A stretch of 36,805 bases of DNA from a virus: positions 1-36,805 of the IMG/VR virus record IMGVR_UViG_3300017917_000441; one strand, written 5' to 3'. Shown in pieces: positions 6,001-26,089 of the stretch. Position numbers and translations under genes: made by a program. Position 1 is the stretch's first letter; each line of letters starts with the position of its first letter. A model generated the notes under the pieces. The model ran no database searches and was not told the DNA's origin. It worked only from the letters and a program-made list of their open reading frames with translations.

Positions 6001-8907
6001 CTGCCCTGTGTTGCCTTCTTTCTCTTGCCATTGATTGCGATACTCTACAGAACCATCATCAAGATTGCGTGGAATCTTGCTGCCAGCAATAGATTTAGAT
6101 AGTGTCTTGCTGCCTGACCTATAGTTGAACGAACCAGAAGTGAGATAATCTGAGAACAGTATGTCGCCTACATTGTTTACTGTCCTGTACTTTAGTTTGA
6201 TTCCTAATTCTGGATCTACTGTGCCTGATGTTCCTTCTTGGTATCCAAATATCTTAGTACCAAAGAAATCGCTTAGTGGATATTCCACAGGATCGATCAA
6301 CGATGTTTCGTTGACGTCGACTAAGTGGAACAGAGGAGCTTGATTTCGCTGTAGCTTGTTCTGTCCTGATACCCAGTTTTCACCTGTATAATAGAATTGC
6401 TTTCCTTTGAAACTAAGGCCTTCTAACACTACTACAGTTTCGCCTTCGTCTACGTTATCGTCGACCAACTCTAAGTGTATCTGTGTCTCATACTTTAACA
6501 ATGCAGTGACATTAGAGCCTGCTGGAGGTATAGCGCCTACAAAGACCAACGTGTCGTTGTTTTGTATAGAATACTGATAGATGGTATCGTTTGAATCAAC
6601 GCCGTCGATCAATAGTCTGAAATTCAATGTGTCATAGACATCAAATCCAAGGTAATAAGAACTAGTGCTAGGATCAGTGATTATGCCTGTGCTTCTAGAA
6701 TCAGTGTCGCTCTGTGGCTTGATCCAGTTGACCTTCCAAACCTTGTCCTTAACGTCTGGATCTCTGTCTGCTGCAAATATGACCGTCATTCCAGGAACCA
6801 GAGGAACGCCATCTACTAGATAGCTAGATATTCCTTCGTTGTCTGCTCTAACCGGCTTGCCTTCAACTTGGCTTAGTGCATCAGTGGTCGTGAGGTCCAT
6901 GACCGTCACAGGATCTTTAGCTTTCTTTCCGAAGTCGTGTAGCTGTAGATCTGGAATGAACTCGATGATTGGTCGCTTGGCTCTTGACTCATAATCTAAA
7001 GTTGGTACTGTATTGTTGTATGATCCTGTGTCTCTGAGAACGTCCTCATGGAACCATCTGTTTATCCTAGACCATGCGTTGCTATCACGGCTTGCACGAT
7101 TGATGAGGATGTATTCCTTGTCAACTGCGCCTGTGACTGATTGGTCTAGCGTGCCTTGATCAAATCCTACAGTATCAAAAGGTGTAGATATGCTGCTTAG
7201 GTATGTTTCAGGTGTTACGAGAGTTGTTTCTGGCACCAGCCTGATACCTGTGCCAACGCCTTCTACGTAATACTTGTTACCTTTGAAAGATTCAGGAGAT
7301 ATGTCACCAGAGAACTCAACCTTAAGTCCGTTGGTAAATCTAACACCGTTAGGACTCGTGAATTCTTTAGCACCAATGATTGATTCATCAACATATATGA
7401 TGTTACCAGCGTCTTGATCGATCAGTTCGATAACGCCTTGAACATTAGGATCAATGCTGTCTTGATAATAAAGCACATCAAGATTAGCTGTCAGGTTCCT
7501 TATTAATTCTAGACCTTCTAGGCTATTGTATATCTCTCTGTTACCGTAGCTTATGCCTTCTAGTATTTCAATCTTGGTGTTAACCGGCACATCAAGATCA
7601 GGGACTAGCTTGATCAACCCGTCTGAAGTGATATTGATCCTAAAGCTTCCTGATCTATTTGCTTCTGGTACGTTATCACCCCTGTCGTAATTGAACGTAT
7701 CAAAAGGTATGTCGTCTGAGTCAAACGGTGAAGGATCATACCAGTTATCTAGATCATCAAAGATCTCAAGATTGCTGGTAGTAAAAGTCCTGCCTGTCAC
7801 AAAGGTGCTGAGCACTCTATATAAAGCAGAACCGTAAGTTACTAAGTCACCCTCTGCAAACTGTGTGAAAGGTTGCCAAGCTTGTGGTGTAGAATCCCTA
7901 GCTGGATCTGGAAGGAAGACTACGGTCTTGTTGTCGACGAACCTGCCGCCATCTATTCCGCCATATGTTTCGAGGACTTCGTCATACTTCTTGTACTGTA
8001 AATCAGTATATCTTAGCAATCTATTTTTCCTAGAACTGATTGCTACAAAGTTAGCACTGCCTATCTTTTCCATGGCAATGTAGAAATCTTGTGCGTTCTT
8101 TGCCGGCACGTTGAACGTGACTGTGCCTACTTCTGCACCGTTGTTCTCGACGCCAAAAACGTCTCTGACAAACAAGTTGTTCTGCCATGGTTCGCTCTCA
8201 GACAAGCCAGGCTTGGTCTGTATGAAGAACCCGTGACCAATCTGGTCCAAGCGGAAGTTATATGTGCCGCCACGAGCTAATCTCAAGCGAGGATTTGGAG
8301 TGTTGCCCACATGGCTAAATTTATAGCCATCGTTCCTAACCCTGATGGTAGGATTGAGGCTGACGCCGAATCCAATAGTATCAAAGTTATTAGATTCAAA
8401 AGTTCCGTCAACGACTTCATAGATGCTTGGTTGTGCAACATCTATGTCTAGATTGTTAGGTATAGGCACAGCATAAACAGACACAGGATCTGGGCCGTTT
8501 GGTAACCAATAATAGCTAGCAAAGTTTGCAAACTTATCATAATCAAACAATCCATCATAGCTGTACTGCTTGGCACGGAACAACCTAGAATGATCGTTGA
8601 CCTTTGCACCTAAGCTAGATAACCTGTCAATGAGATCCTGATAGGTTGAGACAAACTTTATCTTGTCTCGCACGTCCTTGAAAACCGTGCTAGGTTCTAG
8701 CTGGTAATCCTGCCTGAGGTCAGTTGACTCTTCGATGTATCCATCGCTCGTCCTGTATTGAGGCGCAAACTTCCTACCAATATATCCATCTAATCTCTTG
8801 AGCTCTGGCTCAGAGATCAGCTGATCCATAGTAGCTGTCAATAGCTTGTCATTGACATCTGTTCTGAATACGCTTGGTAGGAATTCAAGGCTACGCCTAT
8901 ATGCCAT
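1..8907 (-). CDS. Giant baseplate/tail structural protein, 3' end outside window
   Basis: An uninterrupted frame runs from ATG at 8907 to the left edge: 2969 codons, with the C-terminus missing. The start overlaps the gp6 stop by one base (TAATG), so the two are translationally coupled in the baseplate operon. The N-terminus (MAYRRSLEFLPSVFRTD) is of the type I associate with very large virion proteins next to gp6 in marine T4-like phages; this is recalled, not searched. Residues 1-2300 look like a long series of beta-rich modules without a catalytic motif I recognise. From about residue 2370 there are five FG-GAP-like repeats (FG...VGQPG, FG...AAPGS, FG...IGQPD, FG...VGAPN, FG...IGAPS), interrupted by two modules containing F-x-GDGST and LTG. 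By position it could replace T4 gp7 or other wedge/fibre proteins. The virion role is well supported; the exact role is unknown. Confidence 0.85.
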   Translation of the reverse strand, partial: MAYRRSLEFLPSVFRTDVNDKLLTATMDQLISEPELKRLDGYIGRKFAPQYRTSDGYIEESTDLRQDYQLEPSTVFKDVRDKIKFVSTYQDLIDRLSSLGAKVNDHSRLFRAKQYSYDGLFDYDKFANFASYYWLPNGPDPVSVYAVPIPNNLDIDVAQPSIYEVVDGTFESNNFDTIGFGVSLNPTIRVRNDGYKFSHVGNTPNPRLRLARGGTYNFRLDQIGHGFFIQTKPGLSESEPWQNNLFVRDVFGVENNGAEVGTVTFNVPAKNAQDFYIAMEKIGSANFVAISSRKNRLLRYTDLQYKKYDEVLETYGGIDGGRFVDNKTVVFLPDPARDSTPQAWQPFTQFAEGDLVTYGSALYRVLSTFVTGRTFTTSNLEIFDDLDNWYDPSPFDSDDIPFDTFNYDRGDNVPEANRSGSFRINITSDGLIKLVPDLDVPVNTKIEILEGISYGNREIYNSLEGLELIRNLTANLDVLYYQDSIDPNVQGVIELIDQDAGNIIYVDESIIGAKEFTSPNGVRFTNGLKVEFSGDISPESFKGNKYYVEGVGTGIRLVPETTLVTPETYLSSISTPFDTVGFDQGTLDQSVTGAVDKEYILINRASRDSNAWSRINRWFHEDVLRDTGSYNNTVPTLDYESRAKRPIIEFIPDLQLHDFGKKAKDPVTVMDLTTTDALSQVEGKPVRADNEGISSYLVDGVPLVPGMTVIFAADRDPDVKDKVWKVNWIKPQSDTDSRSTGIITDPSTSSYYLGFDVYDTLNFRLLIDGVDSNDTIYQYSIQNNDTLVFVGAIPPAGSNVTALLKYETQIHLELVDDNVDEGETVVVLEGLSFKGKQFYYTGENWVSGQNKLQRNQAPLFHLVDVNETSLIDPVEYPLSDFFGTKIFGYQEGTSGTVDPELGIKLKYRTVNNVGDILFSDYLTSGSFNYRSGSKTLSKSIAGSKIPRNLDDGSVEYRNQWQEKEGNTGQYQLQTYVATDYQKNLFPLNVLPYSANGFVELDNLLISINNASLNQSLFDIQIEGGQGYLLLDNDLAVGDKIDIKIRSTRSNSNSVFEVPTNLEFNPFNDELGSFTLGQMRSHIISVFETAPGFVGDYIGKNNSRDLGDVKRYGGKIVQNLGQTHLANLLFNDAQVNFVASMDLAHREYVRFKNKLLELAYSMPLTNPLDPVLSLDEIMQELVISKNQLFPYYYSDMIGFGQDFNRLTYVVRPADLLKFDITDIYDDVNASDKAITVYKNNQLLIKDREYRFIPDQPVVELIPADPTDFFNKSELIVNTGDVITIREYRSTDGSFIPPTPTKLGLHQAYTPMIITDGHDANPRQVLRGHDGSLTALFGDHRDEILLEYERRVYNNLKVNHDDALFDIRSYLPGAFRNTEYSKAEFDQILSTRFNAWLGKNGLGASDLSNFDSNDAYTWNYSRTTSRVDSAPMPAAYWRGIYKHYFDTDAPQLRPWEMLGFSQRPDWWVYYYGEAPYTRGNKVLWDDLEAGRIVDGDRQGIDERYKRPGLINIIPVNESGETLSPLDCIVKDYNSLDVSGQYKFGDGGPVETAWKQSSEYPFVLQIAMALMHPAEYFGANLDRNRQVAKEFGPDNTQWVYKDTGLRKLAQTLVHGEIDPTTGEIYRSHGIWSYVTEYAVSLGLDRSIAVGDKLRNLNVQLAYKVGGYTDKKYLKIYADQASPGSTNASVTVPDEDYQLVINKSAPLTTISYSGVIVTKTAEGYSVNGYDDNSPYFTIETSSTSGRRDQIKVGGLTATKYLDGTGYLVDVPYGTEFLSVEQVVDFLISYGRWLTSKGFLFIDKLDEDAAFYKDWDLAAREFMFYVQQGWDQDVAISISPVGSKINFQSDLGVVDGLTNRISGSRVLSEDFKILRSENYQVSRKGRLFSLETNDNVGIYLLDIDVVSYEHVMVINNFTRFADVIYDPKIGARQYRLKLTGFKTGDWDGSFSAAGFIINDDNIEEWQQGKNYYKGEIVLFKNAYWTASENIPGSAEFDFKVWLKSDYTQVKKGLLPNLANRAGLSKSYYDIDAVNLELDADRLGKGLIGLRPRNYFEDLQISDTSQAKFYQGMITQKGSKNSLDKLLRAKLDNFDGTVNYFEEWAVRAGQYGAYGNRELLQINLDETAANRDPIVIEFLADNDQPTDGIYSYKRNDIWVKSQPWNKDWLKTRSVDSLPTDLPSAGYALLDDVDYTSPTLATMNTTIDASQAGSGDYIWVASNQNNLWDILRISETGIRLRSISINRVGLATIKMNGNHGLSVGDYFFIKTSNNTPSYSGFYRVDSVISNTTVNVVTNFASVPEIKLSGQFYKLNSFRYDNSSEVAGTEPVTGWKTGDKLFIDNVTEQGWTVYEKKQIYSNAGNFYPFDPASLIISPAATINGAFGDSLDTDNNNKFLLVGQPGDQKVYSYKFLEGSENLAADVIIAPASTGISQFGQSVAVSSNGFGVIAAPGSNSSTGYVFIVKTSEVNGSFITEQVIPPYDLDVGGNFGSAIAQSDDGAWLAIGQPDIDGGYVYLYQLREKVSLPPYTQSFAGDGSTVSFLLTGLAASPQDVNSVKVAVDGEDLPQIALDGSTINWDLNLGAVVFSDVPSSDVQIEITVSRGTPTQEFVGDGSTDTFTLTGDSAGVTSPYQLKVSVEGVLLIPFRDFTVSGDSITLMVAPADDETVVVDQRSYYELVEAFTSSDNTTGDRFGASLDFTEDGRRLLVGAPNKTVNARANAGAAYVYDRTAIYYAADGNTSLFTANILDNTASPDFYNPSLPRTYVEGELVILETGYGIGEYTVSSGDVLFIDAPIVGSQIVIENNQIVETARLTADVPEAGANFGYSIKMCPSNCSVYIGAPSEDVGSDKVNAGSVFRFVNQGRFYGTITGTVTNPTASVSAYLIINDSWVEIQNGDDLDTITLVINESNIPGVSASSENNALTISTDSLIALNKLKITATDSALLDDLGLSIYVQQQQITSPNSTAYGMFGKA
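395..1795 (-). repeat. FG-GAP-like repeat cluster in the giant tail protein
   Basis: Five copies of a pattern FG-x(3)-hydrophobic-x(6-8)-hydrophobic(2-3)-G/A-x-P occur at about nt 1795-1730, 1630-1565, 1465-1400, 855-795 and 460-395. They correspond to roughly residues 2370, 2427, 2482, 2685 and 2817. The first three are evenly spaced at about 55-57 residues, as expected for blades of an integrin-alpha-type beta-propeller. The last two follow an insertion. The canonical calcium loop (DxDxDG) is degenerate: SDDG and TEDG remain in copies 3 and 4. The repeats diverge at DNA level, so this is a protein repeat and not a DNA repeat. Confidence 0.6.
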
Positions 8908-20955: not shown

Positions 20956-21969
20956 ATGACGAATCCTTTTAGCAGAGCCTTGGTGTTCACCGACATACAC
21001 TTTGGCAAGAAGTCTAACAGCCAGCAGTTCAATCAAGATTGCCTTGACTTCGTAGATTGGGCAACCAAGCTAGGACAAGAGAAAGGCTGCGACAGGGTAA
21101 TCTTTGGTGGTGACTGGCATCACAATCGCGCCAGCATCTCAGTCTACACTCTAACAGCTAGCCTCAAAGGACTGGAGCTAATCAATGATAGATTTGATCG
21201 CGCTGACTTTATTGTTGGCAATCACGACCTGTATTACCGTGATAAACGGACGGTGGCCAGCGTTGAGTGGGCTAATCACATACCTAACATTCACGTTCAT
21301 AGCGATATATTTCGCGACGGAGATATGGTACTGGTACCGTGGCTAGTAGGCGACGAGTACAAGGCCATGCGCAAGCTAGAAGCCAAGCATGTGTTTGGTC
21401 ACTTTGAGCTGCCGCGCTTTAAGATGAACTCAATGGTAGAGATGCCAGATCATGGCGAGATACAAGCCGAGGATCTAGGTGGCATCGACTACGTGTGGAC
21501 TGGTCACTTCCACAAGCGGCAGACACGCAACAATGTAACCTACATTGGCAACACCTTCCCGCATGATTACTCAGATGCGTGGGATGATGAACGCGGTGCG
21601 CTGATACTTGATTGGGACGGTACCATGGAGTACCATGCTTGGCCCAACGCTCCTAGATACAGGACGCTCAAGCTTAGCCAAGTGCTAGACAATCCAGAAG
21701 AACACATCACGCCTACCAGCTATCTCAGAGTTAATATAGATATACCTATCTCATATGAAGAAGCTAATTTCATTAGAGAGACGTTTGATCAGCAGTACAA
21801 GCCGCGTGAGCTTGCGCTGATCCCGCAGAAGCAGGATGAGGTTGTGTTTGATAACTCTATCGAGATCAAGTTTGAGAGCGTGGACCAGATCGTGCATGGC
21901 CAGTTGGCTGCGGTTGACAGCGAGTTCTATGACTCCAAGCTGCTGCTACAGATTTACGAGAACCTCTGA
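20956..21969 (+). CDS. 47: Recombination endonuclease subunit gp47 (Mre11/SbcD-like)
   Basis: A 337-residue protein, matching T4 gp47 (339). It is the metallophosphoesterase nuclease that pairs with gp46 to process DNA ends for recombination-dependent replication. All metal-binding motifs are present: DIHFG (Asp13, His15), GGDWHHN (Asp53), GNHD (89-91), a GH in HVFGHFELP, and TGHFH near residue 182. The gene ends in TGATG, overlapping the ATG of gp46, as expected for a stoichiometric complex. The ribosome-binding site is weak, with the upstream stop 7 bases before the ATG. Confidence 0.96.
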   Translation: MTNPFSRALVFTDIHFGKKSNSQQFNQDCLDFVDWATKLGQEKGCDRVIFGGDWHHNRASISVYTLTASLKGLELINDRFDRADFIVGNHDLYYRDKRTVASVEWANHIPNIHVHSDIFRDGDMVLVPWLVGDEYKAMRKLEAKHVFGHFELPRFKMNSMVEMPDHGEIQAEDLGGIDYVWTGHFHKRQTRNNVTYIGNTFPHDYSDAWDDERGALILDWDGTMEYHAWPNAPRYRTLKLSQVLDNPEEHITPTSYLRVNIDIPISYEEANFIRETFDQQYKPRELALIPQKQDEVVFDNSIEIKFESVDQIVHGQLAAVDSEFYDSKLLLQIYENL

Positions 21970-23753
21970 TGTTTAAGATCAAGAGCCTAACCGTTAAGAA
22001 CTTCATGAGCGTTGGCAACGTCACACAGAGTGTTGACTTTGATCGCAACGATCTAACCTTGGTCCTCGGACAAAACATGGACCTTGGTGGCGACGATGCT
22101 GGTGCCCGCAACGGTACCGGCAAGACCACCATGATCAATGCGCTGAGTTACAGCTTATATGGCCTAGCACTGACCAACATCAAGCGAGACAATCTCATCA
22201 ACAAGACCAACGGCAAGAACATGTTGGTCACCTGCGAGTTTGAAGTCAGTGGGCGTAGCTACAGGATCGAGCGTGGGCGCAAGCCCAACGTTCTCAAGTT
22301 CTATGTCAACGGACAGGAACAGAACCAAGACGAGCATCAGGACGATGATGCACAGGGCGACAGCAGAGAGACGCAGGCCGAGATCGAGAAGCTGTTGGGC
22401 ATGAGCCACGACATGTTCAAACATGTCTTGGCGCTTAACACTTATACCGAGCCCTTCCTTTCCATGAGGGCTAATGACCAGCGTGAGATAATCGAGCAGT
22501 TGCTTGGCATCACTCAGCTATCAGCCAAGGCTGACAGGCTCAAGGAAGTGGCCAAGATAACCAAGGATGCGATCACGGAAGAAGAGTATCGCATCAAGGC
22601 TGTTCAGGATGCCAACAAGAAGATCCAAGATCAGATCGAGGGTCTCGAGCGCAGGCAGAAGCTTTGGATAGCTAAGCGGGATGAAGACATCCAGAAGCTA
22701 GCAGATGCGCTAGAAGCACTGAAAGATATCGACATCGAAGCTGAGCTAGAAAACCACAGGCTGTTGACTTATTACTACAATGACGTCAAGCGCAGGGATG
22801 AAGCCAAGAAGTGGATTGCCAGCATCGAGGCTGCTGAAGCCAAGGAAGCCAAGCGCACAGCACAATTAGAGAAAGAGATCGCAGCACTGCAAGAACACAA
22901 GTGCTATGCCTGTGGCGGCAAGCTGCATGATAACAAGCAGGAAGCCATCCTAGCAGACAAGAAGAAGCAGTTGCAGGAATCAGCCCTGCAGAGCCTAGCA
23001 CATTCTACTCAGCTGATGGATCATCTCGAGGTATTGAAAGAAGTTGGCGAGCTAGGCAAGGCTCCCAAGGTGTTCTATGATACCATAGAGCAGGCACAGG
23101 AACATCGCACCAGCATGGACAAGCTGACCACTCAGCTAGAAGCCAAGCTAGCAGAAGTTGATCCTTATAGTGAGCAGATTGACGACATGCGCAACACTGC
23201 GCTGGAAGAAGTCAACTGGGAGCAGGTTAACGAGCTTAACAGGCTGAGAGAGCACCAGGACTTCCTGCTAAAGCTGCTTACCAACAAGGATAGCTTCATA
23301 CGCAAGACCATCATAGATCAGAATCTAGCCTATCTAAACGCTAGATTGAGCTACTACTTGCAGCAGATTGGCTTGCCTCACTCAGTCAAATTCCAGTCGG
23401 ATCTGACCGTTTTAATCGAGGAGCTGGGCAGGGAATTGGACTTTGACAATCTGTCTAGAGGCGAAAGAAATCGCCTTATTTTGAGCTTGAGCTGGGCGTT
23501 CCGAGACGTCTGGGAGGGGCTTTATCAGCCCATAAATCTGCTGTTCATCGACGAGATGGTAGATAGCGGCATGGATACTAGCGGTGTAGAAGCTGCTATG
23601 GCCATACTCAAGAAGATGTCGCGAGAGCGAAACAAGAGCATATTCCTTGTTTCGCACAAGGACGAACTAGCTGGGCGTGTTAACAACGTGCTCACAGTAA
23701 CTAAGGAGAACGGTTTCACTACATATGGAACCGACATAGAGATAAAGGAGTAA
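21969..23753 (+). CDS. 46: Recombination endonuclease subunit gp46 (Rad50/SbcC-like ATPase)
   Basis: A 594-residue SMC-like ATPase, near T4 gp46 (560). Walker A is GARNGTGKTT at residues 45-54. A coiled coil runs at about 185-310, with a zinc hook CYAC at 312-315 and a returning coil at about 320-440. The ABC signature is LSRGERNRL at 495-503, Walker B LLFIDE at 524-529, and the H-loop His563 in LVSHKDE. All catalytic parts are intact. It binds gp47 and uses ATP to open DNA ends. The start overlaps the gp47 stop. It is followed after 3 bases by a small basic protein gene with a clear GGAG. Confidence 0.97.
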   Translation: MFKIKSLTVKNFMSVGNVTQSVDFDRNDLTLVLGQNMDLGGDDAGARNGTGKTTMINALSYSLYGLALTNIKRDNLINKTNGKNMLVTCEFEVSGRSYRIERGRKPNVLKFYVNGQEQNQDEHQDDDAQGDSRETQAEIEKLLGMSHDMFKHVLALNTYTEPFLSMRANDQREIIEQLLGITQLSAKADRLKEVAKITKDAITEEEYRIKAVQDANKKIQDQIEGLERRQKLWIAKRDEDIQKLADALEALKDIDIEAELENHRLLTYYYNDVKRRDEAKKWIASIEAAEAKEAKRTAQLEKEIAALQEHKCYACGGKLHDNKQEAILADKKKQLQESALQSLAHSTQLMDHLEVLKEVGELGKAPKVFYDTIEQAQEHRTSMDKLTTQLEAKLAEVDPYSEQIDDMRNTALEEVNWEQVNELNRLREHQDFLLKLLTNKDSFIRKTIIDQNLAYLNARLSYYLQQIGLPHSVKFQSDLTVLIEELGRELDFDNLSRGERNRLILSLSWAFRDVWEGLYQPINLLFIDEMVDSGMDTSGVEAAMAILKKMSRERNKSIFLVSHKDELAGRVNNVLTVTKENGFTTYGTDIEIKE

Positions 23754-24140: not shown

Positions 24141-24662
24141 TTGCCAAGCAAGGGAAAAGCCAAGGGTAACGGATGGGAGAGGGAAGTCGCAGATTTCCTA
24201 TCCCAGTTGTATGGGGAAAGCTTCGTGAGGGTGCCCAACTCGGGCGCCTTCATAGGTGGCAAGAACAGCCATCGCAAGACTAACCTCAGCGAACAGCAGA
24301 TCCGTGGATTCAAGGGGGATATAATTCCAGGTCCCAGTTTCCCTTGCTTGAACATAGAGGCGAAGTTCTACAAGGACTTCGCCTTTCATCAAGTAGTACA
24401 AGGCTCATGCAAGCAATTAGACGACTGGATAAATCAGATATTGACCACTTGCGACGCAACAGATATAAACATACTTGCGATGAAGTTTAATCGCAAAGGC
24501 TCATACATAGCACACGAAATCAAGCATCTGCCAAAGATACAAACAGGCCCCAGCTACATACGCTATCACAATCAAAAGCAACATCATGGCCCTTGGATCA
24601 TCCAAGAATTCGAAACATTCTGGCAACTCAATAGTGACGCAATAAGACTTTTAGCTCAGTAG
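24141..24662 (+). CDS. PD-(D/E)XK-type nuclease, Holliday-junction-resolvase-like
   Basis: A 173-residue protein with the layout of restriction-like and resolvase nucleases. It has an N-terminal helix with Glu (GNGWEREVADFLSQLYG), a basic/Gly stretch (VRVPNSGAFIGGKN), GFKGDI with the first acidic metal ligand, and NIEAKFYKDF with the E-x-K pair. The start is TTG at 24141, directly after the previous stop. No in-frame ATG lies before the conserved Glu helix, so TTG is the only reasonable start. Position after gp46/47 fits a role in recombination, branch resolution or DNA degradation. It could be a RecU-like resolvase or another endonuclease; the family is moderately supported and the substrate is unknown. 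Confidence 0.7.
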   Translation: MPSKGKAKGNGWEREVADFLSQLYGESFVRVPNSGAFIGGKNSHRKTNLSEQQIRGFKGDIIPGPSFPCLNIEAKFYKDFAFHQVVQGSCKQLDDWINQILTTCDATDINILAMKFNRKGSYIAHEIKHLPKIQTGPSYIRYHNQKQHHGPWIIQEFETFWQLNSDAIRLLAQ

Positions 24663-24707
24663 AAGCACAGGCCATATAGCCCCTTATATTCGTAATCTGA
24701 TGGTTGC

Positions 24708-25007
24708 GGAGACACCCCGACATTGTCTCCATGTGGGCACAGCAAGGCTAGCTTTAGGCTAAAAGATCGCGGCTCTGTGAAACAGATACAACCGCAGCTA
24801 AGATACACGTTCGCTTGTTAGGGCGTGTTGAAGTTCCGTCATGAGAAGCTGGAGTAGGGGGTACCGGGTGACCGCCTCCGTGTAGTGATACAATCTCCTT
24901 TAACACAGTATGACAGAGTACTCAGATGAAGTGTTCTGATCAGCTTCGCCTGGAAACAGGTGAAGTATGACTTCATATCTAGATGAAATCTTATCGCTGA
25001 AGCGTAA
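24708..25007 (+). ncRNA. Candidate structured non-coding RNA in the convergent gap
   Basis: The 392-base gap 24663-25054 has no credible ORF but contains a chain of hairpins best formed on the plus strand. These are: 24708-24714/24724-24730 (7 bp; loop CCC can pair with GGG 24735-24737 as a pseudoknot); 24749-24752/24758-24761; 24769-24772/24092-type partner at 24792-24795 enclosing 24774-24778/24782-24786; 24851-24854/24876-24879 with an inner GG-GGT/ACC-CC helix; 24881-24884/24889-24892 closed by GTGA; 24944-24952/24957-24965 (9 bp) closed by GAAA, nested in 24926-24932/24970-24976; and 24991-24997/25002-25007. Two loops are GNRA only on the plus strand, which sets the strand. I recognise no Rfam family, and it is not tmRNA, RNase P RNA or tRNA. 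Ends are approximate. Confidence 0.55.
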
Positions 25008-25036
25008 AGAAAAATGTTCGAGCGAAGCGAAGAACA
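25006..25036 (-). terminator. Rho-independent terminator of the amidinotransferase operon
   Basis: On the minus strand TGTTC (25036-25032) pairs with GAACA (25019-25015) around a 12-base loop, and TTTTTCTTT follows. It lies about 20 bases after the amidinotransferase stop. The stem is short, so strength is uncertain. On the plus strand no T-run follows. Confidence 0.5.
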
Positions 25037-25054
25037 GATGTGCGTAGCACATCT
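25036..25054. repeat. Perfect 8-bp inverted repeat beside the amidinotransferase stop
   Basis: AGATGTGC-GTA-GCACATCT is a perfect palindrome with a 3-base loop, ending one base before the stop codon of the minus-strand amidinotransferase. It could protect the mRNA 3' end, add to termination from either side, or close the 3' end of the plus-strand RNA candidate. Confidence 0.6.
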
Positions 25055-26089
25055 TCACATGATGATAGCTGCTTCTCTCTGTGTAAAGAGATTGAATGTA
25101 TCACCTGATCTGTTTAAGTCAAGTGTAGAGCAGTGAATGCCATTATCCCAGAAGTATTGATGTCGATAAGGACACACGATGGGTTCGATGCTGTGCTTGT
25201 CTAGGAAATCAAACACTCGATTGTCATGCTGTGCGAACACTACCTTGCTCTCGTCGATGATCAATGCATTGATGCTGAATATGGTTTCCTGTACGTTACC
25301 TATCCAATCAGTCAACCATGCAGCTACGAACTGCTCGAACTCTTGATCAGTCTCTCCGCGGATCATCCACCACTTGGTAAAGTCTGGTGATCTAGCGTTA
25401 GTCATCTTCCTGTAGGGATGATCCTCATCGCTATCGATCTCTAGCATGTCCCAGTCTGGCATGAGTGTTGACCAATCGATACCTATGTCCCTACGTGCGA
25501 TGCCCACGCCTGGCTTGAGGAATATGAAGTCTCCATCGTTGTGGCCTCCCAGCGTTATCTGGTTGATGCGATTGTGCGGTAGCTGTTTTTGCAGCCAGGC
25601 TATTTCTATGTGATGGAAGGTAGCATATCGATCAACGATTATGTCTTGTCCAAGCTGCGTGATGCTGGGAGCAGCTAGTTCATTGTATGATCTCTTGGAA
25701 TATCCCGGCAATCTCAGGAAAGGCGCATAGCAAACATCTTCTAGCTTGCTTATTATGTTAGGATGATCAGCACCTACCAAGAACATCTTATCGCCTATGA
25801 CCAACTGGCCATCTCGTGGTGCCATGGGCGGTCTAGGTACCAACGTGCTGTCTTTGATATGCTGCTGTATGCTGCCTTCTGCTCGATCAGGTCTGATGAC
25901 GCCAACGCCTTGCTGTCTTAGAAGATCGCAGAGCCTTTGGAAATCTTCTTCGGTCTCGTCAGCTATCTGCTCCAGCATGTGCTTGGTCTTGCTGTTGGGC
26001 ATCTCGCGGAAGAACTCGCGATCATAGACTCGCCCAACCATTGCGTTGCGCAAAGGGTGCCACTGGCAATGTATGTTGAGATCGATCAT
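25055..26089 (-). CDS. Glycine-amidinotransferase-like enzyme (guanidine-group superfamily)
   Basis: A 344-residue protein of the guanidine-modifying (GATM/arginine deiminase/DDAH) superfamily. Visible parts: HPLRNAMVG at 11-19; RPPMAPRDG at 86-94; GGHNDGDFIFLKPGVGI at 181-197, where His183 and Asp185 match the H-x-D of GATM; QETIFSINALII at 267-278; and GIHCSTLDLNR at 317-327 with Cys320 as the candidate nucleophile, matching the HC of GATM. Such enzymes move an amidino group from arginine to an amine, or hydrolyse arginine-like substrates; the acceptor here is unknown. All candidate catalytic residues are present, so it is probably active. ATG 26089 overlaps the stop of the 58-aa ORF (TGATG), tying a metabolic enzyme to a tail-assembly operon. 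Similar genes are known in marine T4-like phages, by recollection. Confidence 0.85.
   Translation of the reverse strand: MIDLNIHCQWHPLRNAMVGRVYDREFFREMPNSKTKHMLEQIADETEEDFQRLCDLLRQQGVGVIRPDRAEGSIQQHIKDSTLVPRPPMAPRDGQLVIGDKMFLVGADHPNIISKLEDVCYAPFLRLPGYSKRSYNELAAPSITQLGQDIIVDRYATFHHIEIAWLQKQLPHNRINQITLGGHNDGDFIFLKPGVGIARRDIGIDWSTLMPDWDMLEIDSDEDHPYRKMTNARSPDFTKWWMIRGETDQEFEQFVAAWLTDWIGNVQETIFSINALIIDESKVVFAQHDNRVFDFLDKHSIEPIVCPYRHQYFWDNGIHCSTLDLNRSGDTFNLFTQREAAIIM

Follow-up and report, generated by a model that had tools for sequence, protein, structure and literature searches.

The DNA analysed here (the window, 36,805 nucleotides, positions 1 to 36,805 of the IMG/VR record IMGVR_UViG_3300017917_000441) belongs to a T4-like phage. 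Its gp47 and gp46 genes (20956-23753) lie upstream of a gap at 24663-25054, and a gene for a T4 baseplate protein (PF12322) lies downstream. The initial annotation had called this gap non-coding, and the call holds: a PDDEXK_15 open reading frame on the plus strand ends at one edge (24141-24662), a minus-strand reading frame begins at the other (25055-26089), and no ORF of at least 60 amino acids is found in between. The two bordering genes converge. The minus-strand gene, previously described as amidinotransferase-like, gave no Pfam match at E 0.001. The features of the locus are as follows.

24141-24662, plus strand: PDDEXK_15 phage endonuclease gene (PF24608, E 1.7e-26), upstream neighbour of the RNA
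24663-24746, plus strand: variable 5′ domain of the window type, with a GGAGACA/TGTCTCC hairpin and a possible CCC/GGG pseudoknot
24747-24989 (about 243 nt), plus strand: conserved core (covariance model R1, 194 bits)
24769-24772 with 24792-24795, plus strand: helix PA, around the conserved CUCUGUGAAAnAGAUACAA; 99.6% paired, four pair types at 24770-24794
24797-24834, plus strand: helix PB; 79-92% paired, both sides change
24815-24914, plus strand: long-range pseudoknot PC (e.g., 24819-24902 and 24820-24901); 77-84% paired, with double changes
24838-24843 with 24867-24872, plus strand: pseudoknot PD; 95.4% paired, double changes in five of six pairs
24851-24854 with 24895-24898, plus strand: helix PF, enclosing PE and PG; 97% paired, double changes in four of four pairs
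24857-24862 with 24874-24879, plus strand: helix PE; 100% paired
24909-24914, plus strand: TATGAC motif of repeat unit 1
24924-24930, plus strand: direct repeat X1 (AGATGAA), in a loop and preceded by ACTC
24943-24965, plus strand: hairpin PI, 9 bp, with a GAAA loop in the window; 84% paired, both-sided changes in two of six pairs
24966-24971, plus strand: TATGAC motif of repeat unit 2
24981-24987, plus strand: direct repeat X2 (AGATGAA), preceded by ATCT, at the 3′ end of the core
25015-25054, plus strand: two tail hairpins (TGTTC..GAACA and AGATGTGC-GTA-GCACATCT), between the convergent genes

Homologues of the element were sought from the neighbouring endonuclease, which led to IMG/VR contigs L001-L009. 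The element sits directly behind the endonuclease gene in L001, L003, and L004, and 3.4 kb away from it in L002. The set was then widened by pattern scans for short conserved stretches and by a profile built from the first members, and the profile matched 195 loci, nearly all of them in IMG/VR. Parts of PA, PE, and unit 2, and a few letters of PD, were prescribed by the scan patterns, so that letter conservation in PA, PE, and unit 2 is partly built in; X1, PB, PC, PF, and PG were absent from all scan patterns. Among 18 records searched whole (6-340 kb), 17 carry a single element. A bacterial carrier was considered on the strength of one GTDB match (L169, an Akkermansia MAG), which covers only about 70 model positions and was taken as chance or decay.

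The usual site of the family has gp46 upstream and the T4 baseplate gene downstream. Within 2.5 kb of the family loci, the T4 baseplate protein gene is found on the opposite strand at 60 loci, gp46 at about 46, a tape-measure-like gene at 38, and PDDEXK-type nucleases at 24. Thus, the nuclease that directly precedes the RNA in the window is a neighbour that varies across the family.

When the region is folded as a single sequence, its plus strand reaches -119.2 kcal/mol (z -1.60), and 9 of 100 shuffles are equally good; the minus strand gives a z of -0.17. Because these values are unremarkable, proof of structure comes from comparison only. A structure alignment (A2) of the approximately 243-nt core was made from 58 diverse members, and helices were derived from pairwise column statistics without prior structural assumption. 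The top canonical column pairs fall at 24770-24794 (PA), 24842-24868 and 24840-24870 (PD), 24851-24898 (PF), and 24819-24902 (PC), and additional pairs of PC reach into the segment before 24915. The resulting model consists of 46 pairs, including the two pseudoknots. Across the 58 sequences, 91.5% of its 2604 cells are paired versus 72.9% after shuffling, and sliding the partners leaves no more than 51% paired. Furthermore, double-sided changes occur in 483 cells versus 145 in shuffles, 32 of the 46 pairs vary on both sides, and the covariation score is 0.499 versus 0.175 for the control. The shuffle controls used here leave the relatedness among the sequences in place. G-U combinations outnumber A-C combinations by 405 to 43 over the structure, which settles that the RNA is read from the plus strand.

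The element at 24663-25054 is therefore almost certainly a real conserved structured RNA. This very strong covariation among diverged homologues, together with the Rfam results given below, supports the initial proposal of an unrecognised plus-strand structured RNA outside the known families, and the strand assignment made there is borne out by the G-U excess. Two of the hairpins that had been picked out by eye also stand: the 7-bp GGAGACA/TGTCTCC hairpin is present, with a stem that covaries among relatives, and the 9-bp stem with a GAAA cap is PI. A third, the proposed 4-bp stem with a GTGA cap, does not form a hairpin: nucleotides 24867-24872 pair instead with 24838-24843 to form PD. The window element carries helices PA to PF, the conserved CUCUGUGAAA and CCG motifs, and the twin X repeats, and thus belongs to the new family defined by the core and model R1.

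Upstream of the core, compensation in the 5′ hairpin is seen as GGCGACA/TGTCGC in L001, GGTGACA/TGTCAC in L013, and GGAACA/TGTTCC in L166. The possible CCC/GGG pseudoknot of the window (24715-24737) is kept in close relatives with hardly any variation. Other members of the family have different folds at this place or a Polynucleobacter-1 (RF01718) domain. Four members matched the Rfam model of the latter above its gathering score of 37 bits:

L004:6664-6808, RF01718 domain, 54 bits
L050:10349-10489, RF01718 domain, 91 bits
L070:1938-2082, minus strand, RF01718 domain, 83 bits
L136:6850-6992, minus strand, RF01718 domain, 80 bits

The domain lies immediately 5′ of the conserved core or is inserted in it; the one in L004 is mounted on a perfect helix, TATACACTATT/AATAGTGTATA, inserted in the 5′ side of the core. 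Because RF01718 adjoins or enters the same core in four members, the motif is one domain of a larger phage RNA. In the 2010 list, Polynucleobacter-1 was assigned to Burkholderiales from fresh water and estuary, with no phage context (Weinberg 2010, PMC2864571). It spans only the approximately 141-nt 5′ domain of some members, without the core, and the 5′ domain of the window differs from it: the RF01718 covariance model, at its gathering score, does not recover the window element, which is not a member. An orphan Rfam motif from 2010 is hereby accounted for as a domain of the new phage RNA.

Downstream of the core, the arrangement of two tail hairpins recurs with altered stems in L003, L045, and others. 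These hairpins probably end transcription or protect the 3′ end, a role that is assigned by inference because a terminator scan over 25015-25054 made no call. Five copies from cultured phages have a TGnTATAAT site 57-82 nt ahead of their conserved 5′ start.

These cultured copies were reached through the covariance model alone, as BLAST searches of cultured phages with the window and five cores returned nothing. Model R1 matched L004 (E 3e-5, R1 E-values being rough). In Klebsiella phage RaK2 it picked out two sites, each within a gap with little annotation (7143-7336, L339-L341; 279887-280167, L342). BLAST with a RaK2 copy then bridged to 41 cultured records, many with two to four places each, from jumbo phages of Klebsiella, Escherichia, Salmonella, Pectobacterium, Cronobacter, Serratia, Erwinia, and Xanthomonas. 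R1 itself detects the RNA several times in each of 121Q, Munch, CBB, GAP32, and XaC1. Its scores on cultured copies are modest (18-29 bits), and homology was therefore tested separately by pairing. When 15 uncultured copies are aligned with 14 cultured ones, 93.9% of PE and PF is paired, with 61 double changes versus 16 after shuffling. When only the cultured rows are considered, all 14 form both PF and PE, and most positions show two or three kinds of pair. The PD pairing is present in cultured phages as well and covaries there (CGTTGC/GCAAC, CTCTGC/GCAGA, CGTCAT/ATGAC, and CGTTAC/GTAAC).

Synteny points in the same direction. One copy in each of 121Q, GAP32, and XaC1 lies downstream of gp46 and endonuclease VII, a site equivalent to that in the window. 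In 121Q, an unannotated gap of about 830 bp separates gp46/EndoVII from the baseplate hub gene, and the RNA lies one small gene before the hub gene; the gene preceding the RNA has the opposite orientation in 121Q and GAP32. Covariation in PE, PF, and PD, the syntenic site, and the twin repeats described below together place the cultured copies in the family. The RNA family is ancient, and the T4-like phages that have conserved it include many jumbo phages. With it, a widespread group of giant phages gains a new class of RNA that is large, structured, and deeply conserved. Its copies in cultured phages, including Sharanji (recorded on E. coli K-12 MG1655), are unannotated and make its function testable at once.

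Paralogues of the RNA occupy large gaps in RaK2, 121Q, GAP32, CBB, Munch, and XaC1, some at unrelated places, and the gaps filled by enterobacterial copies measure about 700-800 bp. Enterobacterial jumbo phages thus have several unannotated RNA paralogues per genome (L339-L363), and the annotated ORFs that overlie some of them, such as RaK2 ORF014w, are probably spurious. The gp46 protein of the window is closest to those of the jumbo phages PA5oct, Phosso, and Atu_ph07 (at most 50% identity), and R1 found no match in these three phages or in SCTP-2. The matching gap in PA5oct (L334:5850-5990; 76350-76490), without an R1 match, contains a hairpin, GTTGCTCTGGTAGAAAAAGATCAAC, that by eye resembles helix PA, and the small ORFs annotated in this gap may be spurious. 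Phosso has a 1-kb unannotated gap (L335:5260-6270; 229760-230770) with many inverted repeats, flanked on either side by Holliday junction resolvase and RNase HI genes. It lies at the place that matches the element in the window and might hold a distant relative.

No known family accounts for the core. At a threshold as lax as E<=10, Rfam yields nothing for the window element except chance snoRNA fragments, and apart from RF01718 in the four members listed above, the many uncultured homologues and cultured copies that were searched match no family in the core. ARAGORN detected no tRNA or tmRNA in the window. Likewise, Rfam models for RNase P RNA, group I and II introns, and phage riboswitches (e.g., glnA) have no match in the window region (E<=10) or the homologues searched, and the same is true of GOLLD, ROOL, and OLE. 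Covarying twin direct repeats are, to our knowledge, undescribed for GOLLD or ROOL. GOLLD and ROOL are large, pseudoknotted, phage-borne noncoding RNAs whose role is not known, and in GOLLD, too, the 3′ part is conserved and the 5′ part varies (PMC12286853); the RNA described here differs from both in having no Rfam sequence or structure match to them and, in the window, no tRNA. Phage ICP1 produces an abundant noncoding transcript of about 800 nt from an ORF-free gap between gp139 and gp140 of this lytic phage (PMC7567579). Compared by description only, it is alike as a large RNA from an ORF-free gap and differs in phage and place. We found no description of the core RNA in the open-licence literature. 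The core family is apparently undescribed, although its general kind, the large phage noncoding RNA, is already known from GOLLD and ROOL.

The most unusual feature of the RNA is found near its 3′ end, where two units follow each other with the PI hairpin between them: (A/G)TGAC-n-ACTC-X1, which ends in a loop, and ATGAC-n-ATCT-X2, which ends the core. X1 and X2 are about 50-60 nt apart (49-67 nt in most elements; 82-100 nt in some cultured copies). Between clades the X sequence varies widely (AGATGAT, GGATGAT, ACGAAAT, GAATAAT, ACATGAT, AGGTAAT, AGCAGAA, ATAGCAG, and others), yet X1 and X2 match at all seven positions within most of the 96 distinct elements, and at six of the seven in most others. 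Per-position identity over the 58 aligned sequences is 95-100% versus 50-95% after shuffling, where the shuffles keep no phylogeny. Position 9 is also coupled (73% versus 28% shuffled), and at position 8 unit 1 mostly has G and unit 2 mostly A. Ranked among all column pairs, the X1/X2 pair 224/292 comes third and is as strongly coupled as the best base pairs. Departures from identity are mostly single A/G differences, which is the pattern expected of step-by-step co-evolution.

Twin repeats persist in cultured phages, such as TCTTCAAGA in RaK2 copy b and TCGTCAG in GAP32 and CBB. They were found by targeted search, as an automatic search for the longest repeat mostly chose unrelated ones. Paralogues of one genome can have different X sequences and still keep X1 equal to X2 (ACGTCAA versus GCGTCAA in XaC1 L363; TGTCA versus CGTCA in Munch L344), and the coupling therefore appears to be intramolecular. 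No complement of X above chance is present inside the RNA itself in the uncultured set: 7-mer complements occur in 0 of 94 elements (1-5 in swapped controls), 6-mers in 12 (mean 17), and 5-mers in 68 (68). A partner site was not found in four whole phage records either, where the best complements to a phage's own X are the element itself or no better than those to foreign X units, and neither X nor its complement is enriched in the loci. A small ORF in unit 2 (ATG ACN ... TCT NNN TGA) was considered and rejected; its spacing is 12-15 nt, and several members, including the window, have no such frame.

We know of no RNA family in which direct repeats covary as strongly as base pairs, and repeats that do so call for a mechanism. 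Comparison among the homologues establishes a plus-strand fold with at least two pseudoknots, a conserved place, and an X1 in a loop that is held identical to an X2 at the 3′ end. We tentatively favour the reading that this is a trans-acting RNA, or the core of an RNP, that presents two equivalent tags to one partner. The RNA would be transcribed during infection as a discrete trans-acting molecule, perhaps often driven by a promoter-like site of its own in the cultured relatives and in the window perhaps released by processing from the end of the gp46-nuclease transcript. Its folded core would hold X1 and X2 such that one and the same binding site reads both, either in succession as a two-state exchange or by a dimeric partner through its two halves. 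X1 and X2 would then be coupled by the need for both to fit that one site. However, this reading has to contend with the lack of a complement above chance in the RNA and of a partner in the four phage records, and the X differences in XaC1 L363 and Munch L344 speak against a single trans partner whose specificity is the same across the genome. An apparently intramolecular coupling would suit a strand-exchange switch, in which a single complementary strand could pair with either X1 or X2, giving the RNA one fold until, for instance, its 3′ end is completed or a protein binds, and another fold afterwards. X1 is indeed the 3′ strand of a local hairpin in some cultured copies (GACGA-CTATCA-TCGTC in GAP32 and CBB; GAAGA-CTACCA-TCTTC in RaK2 copy b), and X2 could therefore displace X1 there. 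The uncultured set offers no such strand above chance, as the 7-mer count shows, and the switch seems unlikely, if the best placed of the alternatives. The two repeats might also be copies of a 7-nt seed with which an antisense or guide regulator recognises one host or phage target. Their length is appropriate, one copy lies in a loop and the other at the 3′ end, and the A/G departures, the ACTC and ATCT flanks, and the G or A at position 8 would all be tolerable to a single partner that can form G-U pairs. Nevertheless, the absence of enrichment in the loci and in the four phage records, and the coupled X differences among paralogues within one genome, leave a guide function rather improbable.

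Slightly less credible still is a large RNA-only assembly or decoy in the manner of GOLLD and ROOL, with the twin repeats engaged in inter-subunit or cargo contacts. These RNAs are of the same general kind (long, pseudoknotted, and phage-encoded; PMC12286853), and the enterobacterial copies fill gaps of about 700-800 bp, but the missing Rfam match to GOLLD, ROOL, and OLE speaks against this, as does the fact that pairing between subunits would require complementary segments, whereas X1 and X2 are identical. The near-constant distance at which matching direct repeats flank PI in most elements brings to mind programmed excision or processing, whereby about 50-60 nt including PI would be removed and the X repeats would mark equivalent cleavage or joining sites. 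A match would then be needed per molecule, in line with the X differences among paralogues. We nevertheless consider this very unlikely, given that the RNA contains no guide strand, has no Rfam similarity to a known intron or ribozyme, and in some cultured copies has its repeats as far as 82-100 nt apart. The lowest standing goes to a purely cis-acting element, either the 3′ UTR and terminator of the nuclease/gp46 operon or a replication origin with a priming transcript. The RNA does follow gp46 and the nuclease on the same strand, with two end hairpins between convergent genes, but its paralogues reside at unrelated places, some with promoter-like sites of their own, and the preceding gene runs the opposite way in 121Q and GAP32. 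It is unlikely, though worth raising, that the RNA performs a reaction needing two identical 7-nt sites per molecule. The stretch between the sites might be removed or exchanged under guidance, for example, or strands might be exchanged at a single catalytic or binding site. If true, such a two-site reaction would be a new use of matched direct repeats in an RNA machine of many giant phages.

The PDDEXK nuclease upstream of the RNA is replaced in L013, L166, and L196 by homing endonuclease-like proteins with a tail of the CPHCKKTGGxxNMxRYHFDNC type, that of L196 being GIY-YIG-like. The gp46 homologue of L234, whose ORF ends 649 nt upstream of the core, has an apparent intein in its ATP-binding loop (...HRFYTNDIISHNTT...).
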